Shown in pieces: positions 5,149 to 43,106 of a stretch of 43,181 nt of DNA (position 1 is its first letter; the number at the start of each line of letters is the position of its first letter). Both the position numbers and the translations under genes were made by a program. The DNA is from Nitrospina sp. (GTDB taxonomy: Bacteria; Nitrospinota; Nitrospinia; Nitrospinales; JACRGP01), in NCBI GenBank assembly GCA_024648695.1, contig JACAVV010000039.1:1-43181 (forward strand), given 5' to 3'. The notes under the pieces are model-generated. The model ran no database searches and had not been told where the DNA came from. It worked only from the letters and a program-made list of their open reading frames with translations.

Positions 5149-8100
5149 ATGAAATCACGACTCTGGAATCTAATTTTACCCTTATTCATTATTTGTTTTT
5201 TCAAGGTGGCTCTGTTCCCCCTTGGGGTGTATGCCAGCTTGGGATCCTCTCATGAAATCCTGTCTTTAAAACAAGTAAATACCAAAAAAGTTATATTAGC
5301 CTCCGAATTAAAATCCAGGGGGACGAATCATTTTGAAATAGCTCAACCCTCCGAACATTCCAGATTGCTCATTGAATGGGACCTTCCAGATTCCCGGGAT
5401 TGGCCCCTCTCCCTGATGGCCAATGGAGAAATAGAAATCCATTCGGACACACCTCTGGTATTAAATTCTCACACCGAAATCACCGCATCGCACATTCAAA
5501 TCAATGCACCCCAGGTGGATATTCAGGGAAACCTCAAGGCCCCGGGCGGAATGATCTCGATAAACTCTGATGACAAATTATTTTTTGCCGGTGTGAGTGA
5601 TGTTGCAGGACGTCAAGGCGGGTCCATCCTGTTTAATGGTCAGGTAGTTTTCATTTCTGGATTGATCAATGCGGATGGTGAGGACCAGGCAGGAACTATA
5701 GAAATCAGCGCTAAAAATATTTTGCAGGCGGGGCAAGTTTCTGCAGACTCACTAAAGGGACCCGCAGGTAATATCGATTTTCATTTTTCGCATCGTTACA
5801 TCGATCAGCTAAACAGCACGGTCACGGCTTCTACCACCTTAGGTAATTCTGGAGGTCGAATCCGGTTGAAGGGTGGAGACTCCGGCAGATTGTATTCTTC
5901 GGGAGTTCACCGGGTGACGGGTTTGGGTAATGAGTCGCAAGGGGGTGAAATCCAGTTTTTGGGTGAAGAACTGATATTACAAGGATCCCGACTGGATGCT
6001 TCCGGTCAATCAGGCGGCGGTCGCATTCGTATAGGTGGTGATTTGCAGGGCAAGGAATCCCTTCTGCAGGCGAGAAAGACTTCTGTCTCCTACGCTTCAG
6101 TTTTGATGGCAGATGCCCGAGAAAAGGGTCCTGGCGGCGATGTGGTCATCTGGTCGACGGAGACCACAGAATTCAATGGACAGGTGACAGCAGACAGTCC
6201 GGCAAAGGATGGAACTGTTGAGATTTCCAGTAAAGGCCAACTAAAACCTGGAGGTTCCGTTTCAACTGGTAGCCTGCTTCTCGACCCCAAAAATATTGAT
6301 GTCAACAATACCGACGCTACCTTTCCCAATATTACTTTAACCGACCCAAACCCCAATGGGACCGATTTTGGTTTTTCTTTTCACCCGTTGTTCGGCGGGG
6401 ATTTTGTGGTAACAGATCCATCAGATAACATCGTTGCCAGTAAATCGGGAGCTGTATATGTTTTTAGCCAAAACGGTTTTCTGAAGCAAATAATCACCGG
6501 GGCTCAGGCAAATGACGAAGTGGGAAGCGGCGACATAACAATTCTAACCAATGGGAAATATGTGGTGAATAGCCCTAAATGGGACAATGGGGCAACTGTA
6601 GATGTTGGGGCCGCAACCCTTGTTAATGTATCATCGGGATCTCTAACCGTGGGTGCCACAAACAGCCTGATTGGATCAACGGCAAATGATGAAGTGGGCA
6701 CAACCAGTGTTTCTCTTGGAAACGGAAGCTATGTTGTGATCAGCCCAAATTGGGACAATGGTGGTACTTCCGATGTGGGGGCGGTGACTTTTGTAGATGG
6801 TACTAACGGGCTTATTGGAGCCGTGAGCACGTCCAACAGTCTTCACGGGTCAACAGCCAATGATCAAGTTGGCTTCTTGGGAGCCACCGTCTTGACTAAT
6901 GGCAACTATGTCGTTCGAAGCAATCAATGGGATAACAGTGGCACCGCCGATGTGGGGGCAGTGACGTTTGGCAATGGATCGACAGGGGTAAGTGGGGCTG
7001 TCGATTCGAGCAACAGCCTCATTGGCTCTACGGCCAATGATCAGGTAGGGTTTCCGGGAGTCGTTGCCCTGACCAATGGAAATTATGTTGTACGAAGCAA
7101 CTTATGGGATGACGGCGGGACAGCAGACGTCGGCGCTGTGACCTTTGGCAATGGATCGACAGGGGTCAATGGGGCTGTCGATTCGAGCAACAGCCTCATT
7201 GGTTCGACCGCTAACGATGGTGTTGGAAATTCTGGACTCACTGCGTTATCCAATGGCAACTATGTGGTGATCAGCTCGTTTTGGGACAATGGCGGGGCCG
7301 TAGATGCAGGTGCGGTGACACTTTGCGATGGATCGACGGGAACTTTTGGCGCTGTGGACACCTCCAACAGCCTGCATGGATCATCTTCTAGTGATCTGAT
7401 TGGCTTTTCGGGTGTTGTTGAAGTCAGCAACGGTGATTTCTTTGTTCAAAGTCCAAGATGGACTAACGCCGGAACCTTTCTTGCAGGTGCCGTCACTCAG
7501 GTGGATGGTTCCACCGGCCTCACCGGACCGGTGACAACCGGCAACAGCCTGCACGGGTCCTCCACCAACGATCAAATCGGTTTTACCGGCACTGCTCTTA
7601 GCAATGGCAATTATATTTTACAAAGTCCCTTTTGGGATGATGGAGGCACAGCGGATGTCGGCGCTGTTACCTGGATCGATGCTTCCACAGGGCGAACGGG
7701 TCCTGTTACGAAAGCAAATAGTTTGCATGGAACCACGGCGTCCGATGGAGTGGGCACAAACACTGTAGCGCTTGGCAATGGTAATTTTGTGGTGGGAAGC
7801 CCAGGGTGGGATGATGGAGGCACCGCCGATGTAGGTGCGGCGACCTGGGTAGATGGTTCCACTGGACTCACCGGTCCCGTGACGACCAGCAACAGCCTGC
7901 ATGGAACCACGGCGTCCGATGGAGTGGGCGATGATTTTCTTGCTTTAAGTACTCCCGGCTCTTATGTGGTGATCGTCGACACCTGGGACAATGGCGGTAC
8001 TGCTGATGTCGGTGCTGTGACTTTTAGCAATGTATCGACGGGTATCTCAGGTCCCGTGACGACCAACAATAGCCTTCATGGGTCAACTGCTAACGACAAG

Positions 8101-10821
8101 ATCGGTACCAAGGCATTTAATTTGGGCAATGGAAACTATGTCGTCCTCAGCCCTGATTGGGATAACGGAGGAACAGCAGATGCAGGAGCCGCGACCTTGT
8201 GCAATGGGACCAATGGAACTGTTGGGCCCGTCTCCAATGCCAACAGTATCATAGGTGAATCGGCCTCTACTTCATTAAGTACGGGTTTTATCGACGAAGA
8301 CCTTATCATCAGCGATGCCGCCTTTTTCACGTACTTTCCAGATGAAAACACCGGTACCGTTCGAATTAGTTGCAGTACTTCGAATCCTCTTTCTTATTCT
8401 TGTCTGCAGACCAGTTCACAAACTATTTCCCCGGCTTTTGTTACAGATATTTTAAATACAGGAACAGACGTGACTTTGCAGGCCAGCAATGATCTAACCA
8501 TCACCAGCGCCATCACAGCGAATAATGGGAGTGGTGATGGAGGCGCACTTACTTTGCAGGCAGGACGTAGCGTTTTGATCAACAATACCATCACAACCGA
8601 TAATGGAGCCCTTACTATTACAGGCAACGATCTGTTGGCGAATGGCGTGGAGGACGACGACAGAATGGCTGGGGATGCCACAATCACTATGAGCAACGGT
8701 ATTTCTCTAAATACTGGAACCGGTGCTATTAATATAGAAATGCGTCCAGGCACAGGTTTAACCAATAACGGCTGTGGGGGAATAAATCTTGAGTCGGTTA
8801 GTGGAGGGGCTATTACTGTAGACCATCAATGCAACGACTCAGGAATTAATATAAATAACACAATGAGTGGATCGACTTTCACATTTGATTCTGATAACGA
8901 TATTACATTTTCTGCGTCAGGGGATATAAACAGCACCGGCCCGGTAACCTTTCGTTGCGATTCGGATAACAATTCAGATGCCGGGTCTGGAGGTGCCTGC
9001 ACCATGGCCAACGGCACCGATATAAATTCAAGTGGATCGAATATAACTTTCAGTTCCGACGAAAGCATCACATTGGGTAACCTCACGACAAGCAGTTCTG
9101 ATAACCTCGGAATCAATCTCACATCGGTGAGCGGTAGCATTCTCGATGCCGGAACAACCGAAGAAAATATAAATGTTCCCAACGGAGGTTTTAAAGCAAC
9201 CACGGGGATAGACCTTGGAGCTTCCGGCAATCCCCTCGAAGGAACCGTCGGTTCTTTTAGCTTTGACGATGTTTCCGGCTCGGTCTTTTTCACAAGGGCT
9301 GGCACAACCGTGAGTTATGACACTTCCTCCAGTGATGGAGGAGAGTCTACGGCTACTGTAAACCTGCCCGTTTCGCTCAATCAAACCAATGGCACTTGCT
9401 CCGTAGATTATTCTGTATCAGGTGGTACAGCAACCGGAGGCGGCGCGGACTACACGCTGGCTTCAGGAACCTTGACCTTTCCAGCAGGTACACTTACAAA
9501 AAATATTGCCATTACAATTACCGATGATTCAGACGATGAAAATGACCAGACGATTGAAGTCACATTATCCAATCCGGTAAATGTTTCGCTGGGTACCAAT
9601 ACGGTACATACGTATACTATTCTGGATAATGATTTACCTCCGGTAGGGAATTTCGACAATAGCAGTTCGAACGATTTAGAGTCGGTTTCACCAAAACTTA
9701 TTCAGGTATCGTTGACCGGAACATCTGAAATCTCGTCTCTTGGAATCGATTTTTCAGTCACGAGCGGGACAGCCACAGGAGGCGGCACCGATTTTACGCT
9801 TGCCGCTGGAACTTTAACTTTCAATCCTTCTATTTCCACCCAGAATATTTCGATAGATGTTACTGATGACGCGGTGGATGAAGATAATGAAACCATCGTA
9901 ATCACCTTGACGGGTGCATCAATTGGAACCAACACAACACACACGTACACGATCGTCGATAATGACGGAGTTCCTACTGTAAGCTTTGATGACCCTGAAT
10001 CAAGCGACTCGGAAACTAACGGAAATGCAATCATACCCGTATCTCTTTCAAATAGTTTCGGGTCTACGGTCACCGTTGAATATTCGGTGACAGGAGGCAG
10101 TGCATCGGGAGGTGGAGTTGATTTTTCCCTGGCATCGGGTACCCTCGTTTTCGATTCCGGAATCACCACACAAAACATAACCATTCCCGTGACCATTGAT
10201 GCCTTCATTGAAAGCAACGAAACCATCGAACTGACCTTATCGAATCCATCCAATGCCGGGCTCGGAATATTTCCGGAACATACATTTACCATCAATGATG
10301 GCGGTGCACCGGTCATAGTAATAAACCAGGGAAAACAAGTGATCTCACCTTATTGGCAGGCAGATTCCGAAACCTATACATTCATCGGCGTATCGCATCC
10401 ATCGCTGTCTCAAATGAATTCCCAAATAGGCGTGAACTTGCAAGCCTTTACCAACTCTAATATAGCTTTGGATATTCCACTGGTATTCACCATTCAACCA
10501 AATGAAACGATAAAGGTTTTCATTGTCCAGAGCAATCATCCCTTCATAACACCGCAAAACTTGCCTGGCAGTTTGTTTCTCCTGGCCGGGTCAACCACAT
10601 CGGAACATGGGCAATTGAAGTTCTCTCCAATAGCAACCCAACCTTTCGACCTGGTTGGATTGGAAGGAACCTCAGGTCGCGGTTATGCCGATATCACCAT
10701 GCTGAACTACTGGGGAGCCGTTGTGGTGCAGGCCACGTCTACCGGATTCGCCATGGAATTCATTGGGGACATGAAAGACTCAAGAGCCCGAGGCACTCCC
10801 TTGTTCAGTGGTGTCAATTGA
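5149..10821 (+). CDS. large secreted adhesin-like protein: FHA-like region, 10 tandem repeats, three Calx-beta domains
   Basis: A 1890-residue protein preceded by a G-rich ribosome site (AGGGGG, ending 6 bases before the ATG). Residues 1-29 form a signal peptide ending in GVYA. Residues ~60-400 are a low-aromatic, Gly/Ile-rich beta-helix-like region ending in LLLDPKNIDV, a motif typical of filamentous-haemagglutinin-like proteins. Residues 449-1033 hold ten tandem repeats of 58-59 residues with consensus LxGSTANDxVG...NGNYVVxSPxWDNGGTADVGAVT. Residues ~1080-1370 return to beta-helix-like sequence. Residues ~1379-1721 hold three Calx-beta units, each with a GGxDFTLASGTLTF-type core and a TIxDND-type end. 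Residues ~1723-1890 are a C-terminal domain shared with the protein at 41574-43106. It is probably extracellular or surface bound, with adhesion or matrix roles; the export partner is not visible nearby. Confidence 0.85.
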   Translation: MKSRLWNLILPLFIICFFKVALFPLGVYASLGSSHEILSLKQVNTKKVILASELKSRGTNHFEIAQPSEHSRLLIEWDLPDSRDWPLSLMANGEIEIHSDTPLVLNSHTEITASHIQINAPQVDIQGNLKAPGGMISINSDDKLFFAGVSDVAGRQGGSILFNGQVVFISGLINADGEDQAGTIEISAKNILQAGQVSADSLKGPAGNIDFHFSHRYIDQLNSTVTASTTLGNSGGRIRLKGGDSGRLYSSGVHRVTGLGNESQGGEIQFLGEELILQGSRLDASGQSGGGRIRIGGDLQGKESLLQARKTSVSYASVLMADAREKGPGGDVVIWSTETTEFNGQVTADSPAKDGTVEISSKGQLKPGGSVSTGSLLLDPKNIDVNNTDATFPNITLTDPNPNGTDFGFSFHPLFGGDFVVTDPSDNIVASKSGAVYVFSQNGFLKQIITGAQANDEVGSGDITILTNGKYVVNSPKWDNGATVDVGAATLVNVSSGSLTVGATNSLIGSTANDEVGTTSVSLGNGSYVVISPNWDNGGTSDVGAVTFVDGTNGLIGAVSTSNSLHGSTANDQVGFLGATVLTNGNYVVRSNQWDNSGTADVGAVTFGNGSTGVSGAVDSSNSLIGSTANDQVGFPGVVALTNGNYVVRSNLWDDGGTADVGAVTFGNGSTGVNGAVDSSNSLIGSTANDGVGNSGLTALSNGNYVVISSFWDNGGAVDAGAVTLCDGSTGTFGAVDTSNSLHGSSSSDLIGFSGVVEVSNGDFFVQSPRWTNAGTFLAGAVTQVDGSTGLTGPVTTGNSLHGSSTNDQIGFTGTALSNGNYILQSPFWDDGGTADVGAVTWIDASTGRTGPVTKANSLHGTTASDGVGTNTVALGNGNFVVGSPGWDDGGTADVGAATWVDGSTGLTGPVTTSNSLHGTTASDGVGDDFLALSTPGSYVVIVDTWDNGGTADVGAVTFSNVSTGISGPVTTNNSLHGSTANDKIGTKAFNLGNGNYVVLSPDWDNGGTADAGAATLCNGTNGTVGPVSNANSIIGESASTSLSTGFIDEDLIISDAAFFTYFPDENTGTVRISCSTSNPLSYSCLQTSSQTISPAFVTDILNTGTDVTLQASNDLTITSAITANNGSGDGGALTLQAGRSVLINNTITTDNGALTITGNDLLANGVEDDDRMAGDATITMSNGISLNTGTGAINIEMRPGTGLTNNGCGGINLESVSGGAITVDHQCNDSGININNTMSGSTFTFDSDNDITFSASGDINSTGPVTFRCDSDNNSDAGSGGACTMANGTDINSSGSNITFSSDESITLGNLTTSSSDNLGINLTSVSGSILDAGTTEENINVPNGGFKATTGIDLGASGNPLEGTVGSFSFDDVSGSVFFTRAGTTVSYDTSSSDGGESTATVNLPVSLNQTNGTCSVDYSVSGGTATGGGADYTLASGTLTFPAGTLTKNIAITITDDSDDENDQTIEVTLSNPVNVSLGTNTVHTYTILDNDLPPVGNFDNSSSNDLESVSPKLIQVSLTGTSEISSLGIDFSVTSGTATGGGTDFTLAAGTLTFNPSISTQNISIDVTDDAVDEDNETIVITLTGASIGTNTTHTYTIVDNDGVPTVSFDDPESSDSETNGNAIIPVSLSNSFGSTVTVEYSVTGGSASGGGVDFSLASGTLVFDSGITTQNITIPVTIDAFIESNETIELTLSNPSNAGLGIFPEHTFTINDGGAPVIVINQGKQVISPYWQADSETYTFIGVSHPSLSQMNSQIGVNLQAFTNSNIALDIPLVFTIQPNETIKVFIVQSNHPFITPQNLPGSLFLLAGSTTSEHGQLKFSPIATQPFDLVGLEGTSGRGYADITMLNYWGAVVVQATSTGFAMEFIGDMKDSRARGTPLFSGVN
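6493..8247 (+). repeat. ten in-frame tandem repeats of 174-177 bp
   Basis: Inside the 1890-aa gene, units begin near 6493, 6667, 6841, 7018, 7195 and onward at the same spacing, each encoding 58-59 residues. They resemble the bacterial repeat family I know as DUF5650 (assignment from memory). Nucleotide similarity is uneven. The junctions of units 3/4 (near 6967-7024) and 4/5 (near 7143-7200) are almost identical, as are the starts of units 8 and 9 (near 7723 and 7898), which points to recent unit duplication. Confidence 0.85.
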
Positions 10822-41573: not shown

Positions 41574-43106
41574 TCAATTCACCCCGCTAAAGTTGGGCGT
41601 GTTGAACGCACGGGAGTCATTGATATCGCCGATGAACTCCATAGCAAATCCGGTGTTGGTTTGAGGTATAACGATCACACCCCATAGATTCAATTGCCGG
41701 ATGTCAGGGAATCCACAATGATTTACCGCTACGGTTTCACAACTTTGAGGATTGGGTGATAGAGGAGAAATCTCTAACGACCCAAAATGAGTGTCTGTCA
41801 AACCGATAACAAAATTACCTGGCGAGAGCGTCTCTTCATTGACATGACCGGTACCATTGCCAACAATAAACACCTTCTTCGTTTCGTTCGCTTTAATATC
41901 GAACTCAATCAACACACGCGAATCGGCCGCGACATCATTCGAAACACCACTTCCCTCACCCTCTTCCGATTGGATTGCAAATGAAAGACCTATCTCCTCA
42001 TTCATCCCCGAAAGTGATGGATGACTGACGCTGATAAACGTATACGCATTCTCATCAGCCTGCCAATAGGGGGCAATAACCGATGGGCGATTGGAGAGCA
42101 ATACTTTGCTTACTGTCACCAGTTGAGTTGCCGTTCCTGTGTTTCCGGAGGAATCGGTAGCGCTCCAGGTGACTGTGTTGACTCCTTCCTTAAACGGACC
42201 GGTGAAATCCGGCGATGGTGAACAACAGGGGTTTCGGTCCACTAAATCTATCGCGAAGGCTTGTCCAATATCCAAAGCAACGTTCTCTCCGGCAGTCTCC
42301 ACAGAAATATCGGGCGGTGGGAGAACGATGGGTGGGGATGTGTCCTCCACCGTGATGGTATGTGTGGATGTGGCCGTGTTCCCCGCTTCGTCCTCAGCGG
42401 TCCAGGTAACCAGGGTCGCTCCCAACGAAAATGCGTCTGGTTGATCGCTGGTGATTAAAATATCCTCTTCTGCCGTAACCTGATCACTAGCAGTAGCCTC
42501 ATCAATAGTAAATGCGGTTTCGGGTCCGGTGGCTTCAATGGTGACACTCTTTGGTAAGGAAATGGAGGGAGGCGTTGTATCTTGAACCTTTACCGTTTGA
42601 TTGGCGTTGGCAGTATTCCCCTCTTTATCTATCGCAGTCCAGGAAACAATTGTCGTTCCCAAGGGAAATTCTGCAGGTGCATCATTAGAAATCGTTATAT
42701 CCTCAGACTCACTAACTAAATCTGTAGCTGTAGCCGTTCCAATGGGGAAAGGTGTTAGCGATCCGATGGCTTCCAAAAGCAGATCACTCGGGGGAATGAC
42801 TACGGGGGGGGTTGTGTCTTGAACTGTTACTTTTTGTATCTCAACTCCTATGCCCCCGCGTTCGTTTTGAGCTGTCCACGTGACCTCTGTGGTACCCAAT
42901 GGAAACGCGGTAGGCGCATCATTTGTAATAATAATTTCCTCTGAGGTCCACACTTCGTCGACAGCTGTGGCGATTCCGATTTCCAGGGACATTTCCGTTC
43001 CAATGCCTTCCACAAGAATATCCTGAGGAAGACTCATTGTAAGTTTATATGGAATATCACTAGTGTCCGGTAAAAAATGAGAGTCATGGCTTAACCCCTT
43101 CAGCAA
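41574..43106 (-). CDS. HYR-repeat protein with conserved C-terminal domain, 5'-truncated
   Basis: The open frame is 510 codons, but roughly the first 15 (from 43106 to ~43061) lie in what looks like insertion-sequence end DNA. The true gene therefore probably lost its 5' end and signal peptide. Four HYR units follow one another (residues ~25-95, 96-177, 178-258, 259-335), each with a PLGTT.V.WTA.D..GN core and VQDTTPP linker. The fourth holds a CC pair. Residues ~336-510 are a C-terminal domain matching that of the protein at 5149-10821 (PYWQAD..AYTFISVSHPSLS; TGFAMEFIGDINDSRA; final FSGVN). HYR units are Ig-like adhesion modules. Export is doubtful in the present form; an internal ATG at 43037 gives no signal peptide. 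Confidence 0.75.
   Translation of the reverse strand: MLKGLSHDSHFLPDTSDIPYKLTMSLPQDILVEGIGTEMSLEIGIATAVDEVWTSEEIIITNDAPTAFPLGTTEVTWTAQNERGGIGVEIQKVTVQDTTPPVVIPPSDLLLEAIGSLTPFPIGTATATDLVSESEDITISNDAPAEFPLGTTIVSWTAIDKEGNTANANQTVKVQDTTPPSISLPKSVTIEATGPETAFTIDEATASDQVTAEEDILITSDQPDAFSLGATLVTWTAEDEAGNTATSTHTITVEDTSPPIVLPPPDISVETAGENVALDIGQAFAIDLVDRNPCCSPSPDFTGPFKEGVNTVTWSATDSSGNTGTATQLVTVSKVLLSNRPSVIAPYWQADENAYTFISVSHPSLSGMNEEIGLSFAIQSEEGEGSGVSNDVAADSRVLIEFDIKANETKKVFIVGNGTGHVNEETLSPGNFVIGLTDTHFGSLEISPLSPNPQSCETVAVNHCGFPDIRQLNLWGVIVIPQTNTGFAMEFIGDINDSRAFNTPNFSGVN

Follow-up and report, generated by a model that had tools for sequence, protein, structure and literature searches.

In type IX secretion of the Bacteroidota, dozens of unrelated exoproteins per genome carry a signal peptide together with a conserved C-terminal beta-sandwich domain (PMC4804311, PMC12618676). 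The CTERM sorting tags, among them PEP-CTERM/exosortase, GlyGly-CTERM/rhombosortase and MYXO-CTERM, place one common C-terminal tag on many proteins of a genome (PMC3237569, PMC11980579). Type IV pili export small non-pilin proteins, such as TcpF and CofJ, that are encoded with the pilus genes (PMC9565799). Here, we describe a terminal domain from the Nitrospinota, a phylum that includes the most abundant known nitrite oxidizers of the ocean (PMC10839748). Like the type IX domain, it is a predicted C-terminal beta-sandwich on many signal-peptide-bearing exoproteins of one genome, and, like TcpF and CofJ, two of its small exported forms usually lie beside pilus genes. When a single terminal domain recurs across many unrelated exported proteins, it typically marks a module for delivery or anchoring, as with type IX or CTERM tags. 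Such surface proteins did not come up in word searches of two Nitrospinota genome papers, and a search of the literature on Nitrospina surface proteins returned nothing useful.

A terminal domain shared by many exported proteins

The window (the whole stretch of DNA analyzed, 43,181 nt) encodes two copies of the domain (Table 1), which a sequence-only reading had taken for a C-terminal domain common to two otherwise unrelated secreted proteins, one with Calx-beta and one with HYR domains. The two copies aligned with 46% identity (E = 2e-36) across query residues 4-168 (10315-10818(+) versus 41577-42095(-)), and the parts N-terminal to them are indeed unlike: a signal peptide, ten DUF5650 repeats and three Calx-beta domains in the 1890-aa carrier versus three HYR domains in the other (Pfam). 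For the 1890-aa protein, secretion is predicted from its signal peptide; the HYR carrier gene abuts the end of contig C29 (43181), with an in-frame stop ~45 nt from that end, which makes its start and any signal peptide uncertain. The sharing is real, but the two proteins are not a pair; they belong to a family of >40 proteins in the window's genome. Since 46-47 copies occur in that genome, their resemblance is not due to chance. The conserved unit, ~165 residues long, includes a strictly C-terminal tail, usually [FVA]-S-G-x-N-COOH.

Table 1. Coordinates of the two carrier genes in the window and of the domains they encode
Feature	Position	Strand	Basis
1890-aa carrier gene: signal peptide, DUF5650 repeats, Calx-beta domains, C-terminal A-type domain	5149..10821	+	
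Last Calx-beta domain, immediately upstream of the terminal domain	9958..10257	+	Pfam PF03160, residues 1604-1703
A-type terminal domain, 168 aa, family reference copy	10315..10818	+	46-47 genome matches; two alignments
C-terminal tail FSGVN, stop codon directly after	10804..10818	+	translation
HYR carrier gene, 510 aa as read; 5' portion close to the contig end, with uncertain start and signal peptide	41574..43106	-	
Best HYR domain, second carrier	42348..42584	-	Pfam PF02494, residues 175-253
Terminal domain, second copy	41577..42104	-	46% identity, E 2e-36
C-terminal tail FSGVN, second copy	41577..41591	-	

The window's genome was read in stretches. About 40 of its different exported proteins end in the domain, which nearly always closes a long chain that begins with a signal peptide. 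Across all genomes, 79 of the 80 fused copies at the loci fetched lie ≤25 residues from the stop codon, and 69 of the 80 lie within 5. The parts that precede the domain include M12-type metalloproteases, subtilases (S8), glucose/sorbosone dehydrogenase, NHL and SBBP/DUF7948 propellers, as well as FG-GAP, Calx-beta, HYR and DUF5650. By a simple heuristic test, a signal peptide was called in 56 of 70 assessable fused proteins and at the start of 79 of 82 stand-alone copies, versus 68 of 226 control ORFs. A terminal domain that has moved between surface proteins, as the sequence-only reading proposed, thus fits its varied and mostly signal-peptide-bearing carriers, and the domain is present in far more proteins than the first two.

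We noted a 1508-aa protein (L072:8553-13076(-), contig C34 of the same genome, G000) with the domain directly behind the signal peptide and Calx-beta and RHS repeats after it; it is the one N-terminal copy, and its domain has no free C-terminus. The same genome holds truncated or broken copies (L079:3602-5053(-), L040:2969-3328(+), G000:C26:345-476, C33:31920-32066 and C1:79664-79765), which are signs of turnover. An M12-type metalloprotease joined to the terminal domain occurs in all main lineages (L032:8763-10793(-), L085:7636-9417(-), L087:4660-6522(-), L041:2492-4324(-) and L179:738-2675(-)); the L041 copy reads HAIGHN in place of HEIGHN. The protease part is ~40-54% identical across families, from which we take the fusion to be probably old, perhaps older than any other; the protease could process A/B (see below) or their partners.

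Forty of 77 Nitrospinota genomes carry the domain, a count in which absences weigh little since many of the genomes are incomplete MAGs. All but one of the 40 belong to the same order, and outside the window's genome each has 1 to 11 copies. A scan of public genomes, run once with single-sequence patterns that could miss distant relatives elsewhere, matched only Nitrospina, Nitrospinaceae and Nitrospinota MAGs, on which basis we assigned the window's genome to the Nitrospinota. No relative was found in the viral contigs and plasmids searched.

The sequence-only reading had left room for an already defined domain; Pfam, NCBIfam and PDB sequence searches gave no match to it, and by these comparisons the domain is a new, previously undescribed family. 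Two AlphaFold models, each built from a 7-row alignment of sequences from the window and related loci, agree on a predicted all-beta sandwich of about nine to eleven strands at moderate confidence (pLDDT 65-66, pTM 0.64-0.65), the tail being of low confidence. The consistent top fold match of both was TM1070 of Thermotoga maritima (PDB 1nc7; Foldseek probability 1.00, E about 5e-3, target TM-score 0.60-0.63), with agarase accessory domains and a carbohydrate-binding module among the other matches; none reached E 0.001. TM1070 belongs to the ASRT family (PF07100). It is like the domain in fold but unlike it in sequence: the PF07100 model matched none of 57 domain members and was absent from all 77 Nitrospinota genomes, while its Thermotoga control matched. 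We therefore rejected homology to ASRT as a resemblance of fold only.

Stand-alone proteins A and B and the type IV pilus locus

In most domain-bearing genomes, the domain also occurs by itself as two adjoining exported proteins, A (~200 aa) and B (~220 aa). A maximum-likelihood tree, made by a quick method with SH-aLRT support only, placed B in a deep group separate from A. Fusions are almost all A-type and group by bacterial family with the A of that family; the three rare B-type fusions are L141:1686-4319(-), L143:1026-2243(+) and L151:2065-3123(-).

In 26 genomes, a gene for a TPR protein related to PilW/Tgl/MamA lies downstream of A (or of A and B) in the same orientation, and several of these TPR genes encode a recognizable lipobox. 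The cassette lies divergent from, and adjoining, a conserved operon (PilT, PilU, PilC, a RodZ-like and another PilW-like protein) in about 22 genomes. Among the 26 are G041, from another family, and G007, where the cassette is away from the pilus operon. In one genome (G018, contig C10), the A gene of the pilus locus is broken by a TAG before the tail (L140:2949-3497(-)). The pilus operon is also present in genomes without the domain and is older than the domain, so we discarded a strict dependence of the domain on this locus.

Besides G007, the exception to this arrangement is a second locus in part of one family, which encodes duplicates of the two proteins, A' and B', together with an M12 protease carrying the domain. 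Neither pilus nor TPR genes lie nearby, and the linked protease has the same tail as A', suggesting that it is A itself with which tails are matched. As for machine genes, both PilQ and GspD are encoded in the window's genome, and neither tracks the domain exactly across genomes; because the distribution of GspD departs from that of the domain, type II secretion was rejected as sole partner.

Carboxy-terminal tails of fusions and of A

Of the fused copies retrieved from the window's genome, 39 are intact and C-terminal, and every one of these closes exactly with G-x-N, 37 of them with S-G-x-N, after a variable stretch of about five residues. This one tail is written in 31 different 12-nt spellings, which indicates selection at the protein level. 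Among 166 ends from all genomes, 126 show this kind of tail and 14 read GPA[AS][PR].

The tail differs across lineages (SGVN, GPAAP or ...TSQP), and in fusions it varies together with the tail of the stand-alone A from their own system. With the proteins sorted into seven systems according to lineage and locus, no permutation among 5,040 other than the true pairing of fusions with A reached the observed similarity, a figure that denotes association and not cause, as lineage confounds it, and that includes our choice of the pilus-locus A as the counterpart for those family f2 fusions that are unlinked. Within genus g7, the tree groups domain cores A with A and fusion with fusion, and tails match within each genome in different codons: ...TSQP in both A and the fusion of G010, whose genes are about 471 kb apart, and TSGIN in both in G014. 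Most pairs of A and fusion likewise encode identical tail residues through differing synonymous codons, with nucleotide identity across the final 36 nt falling to as little as ~50%. We also noted that, in G034, A' (L069:5688-6314(+)) and the neighboring M12 protease (L069:7013-9043(-)) are identical over their last 96 bases, a recent gene conversion.

A predicted surface structure and competing accounts of the domain

We favor a reading, to which we give about an even chance, in which the domain serves for surface targeting and co-assembly: carriers become part of a structure made of A and B, and the free tail is the matched contact. A and B, which comprise little but the domain, would be made with a dedicated PilW/Tgl-like TPR protein, usually beside a type IV pilus operon, and would most likely assemble into a structure located at the outer membrane or beyond it. 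After Sec export, the A-type copy of a carrier would replace an A subunit or dock on A/B, and proteases, dehydrogenases and adhesin-like proteins would thereby be held on the A/B structure. The free tail (usually S-G-x-N-COOH) would act as the specificity contact, kept matched to the A of the same system. The domain, its terminal place, the A-B-TPR cassette and the conservation and matching of tails are observed; that a complex or polymer forms, that the tail makes the contact and that pili are functionally involved are the steps that we infer.

What the sequence-only reading called a sorting, anchoring or secretion signal fits a terminal domain on varied exported proteins, but a mere sorting signal is an incomplete description, because the domain makes up the whole of A and B and because the N-terminal fusion offers no free end; the module is also a structural or partner module. 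We prefer co-assembly to a bare signal since two proteins consist of the module alone, since the A'B' duplicate has its own matched tail with no machine genes beside it, and since the module of one carrier sits just after its signal peptide, ahead of Calx-beta and RHS repeats. Several points stand against co-assembly: lineage confounds the matching of tails, some of which is due to gene conversion; in one carrier the domain follows the signal peptide instead of closing the protein; the pilus operon is the older of the two and is also present in genomes that lack the domain; and the predicted structure is of moderate confidence.

The main rival is a pure export signal in the manner of type IX, in which an outer-membrane machine (the secretin of the type IV pilus together with the dedicated TPR protein, or a type II system) recognizes the folded domain and its carboxy-terminus, A and B being its oldest cargo. 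It draws on the pairing of a signal peptide with a conserved terminal beta-sandwich in dozens of unrelated proteins, on the PilW/Tgl-like TPR gene and pilus operon that adjoin A-B, and on the PilQ and GspD of the window's genome. We nevertheless consider it rather unlikely: signal-only proteins are unexpected as cargo, the tail differs between lineages, A'B' have their own tail and no machine gene beside them, no machine gene tracks the domain exactly, and one copy is N-terminal. Export by a pilus-type or type II machine may, all the same, hold together with co-assembly. A beta-sandwich with a glycan-binding or adhesive role, attaching carriers to the capsule or matrix of the cell itself with no A/B complex, would suit the fold matches to agarase accessory domains and to a carbohydrate-binding module, as well as carriers typical of surface or matrix proteins and enzymes; as it explains neither the exact C-terminal G-x-N end nor the matching of tails with A nor the A-B-TPR cassette, we regard it as improbable. 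About as improbable, in our judgment, is an account by history, whereby every lineage has time and again placed copies of A on other genes, gene conversion has kept these copies alike, and neither terminal place nor tail has a function of its own. Fusion domains that group by family with that family's A, and the recent conversion tract in G034, speak for it. Against it, synonymous codon differences in most pairs and 31 spellings of one tail in one genome argue for selection on the protein, and the protease part, at about 40-54% identity across families, suggests an old fusion.

An extended form of the favored co-assembly reading is a hitherto undescribed surface-delivery system of the Nitrospinota, in which A, B and the dedicated PilW/Tgl-like TPR protein, with type IV pilus parts, would export and display dozens of proteins via a folded C-terminal module whose last residues are a system-specific address that co-evolves with A; this we hold to be possible though doubtful. 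A single profile search on the domain would define much of the Nitrospinota surface proteome, and the matched tails offer a direct test of how such modules are recognized.

How far, then, does the module resemble the described systems? As in type IX cargo, a Sec signal peptide and a conserved folded C-terminal domain occur together on many proteins. However, type IX C-terminal domain models (Pfam, NCBIfam) matched none of the terminal domains, and type IX secretion was rejected on this ground; SprA, the translocon, was matched in 0 of 77 Nitrospinota genomes by a search that was silent in its control genomes too. The module differs, moreover, in its length (~165 aa), its occurrence as domain-only proteins and its system-dependent tail. 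CTERM tags are short, with a membrane helix and a basic end, whereas the Nitrospinota proteins show neither a C-terminal helix nor a basic run and end in S-G-x-N or G-P-A-A-P behind a folded, beta-rich domain. Unlike TcpF and CofJ, the module is C-terminal on dozens of proteins, and its link to the pilus is putative, being drawn from gene position. C-terminal delivery domains would thus extend beyond the Bacteroidota, and with a different logic, one in which the module itself is a stand-alone protein.
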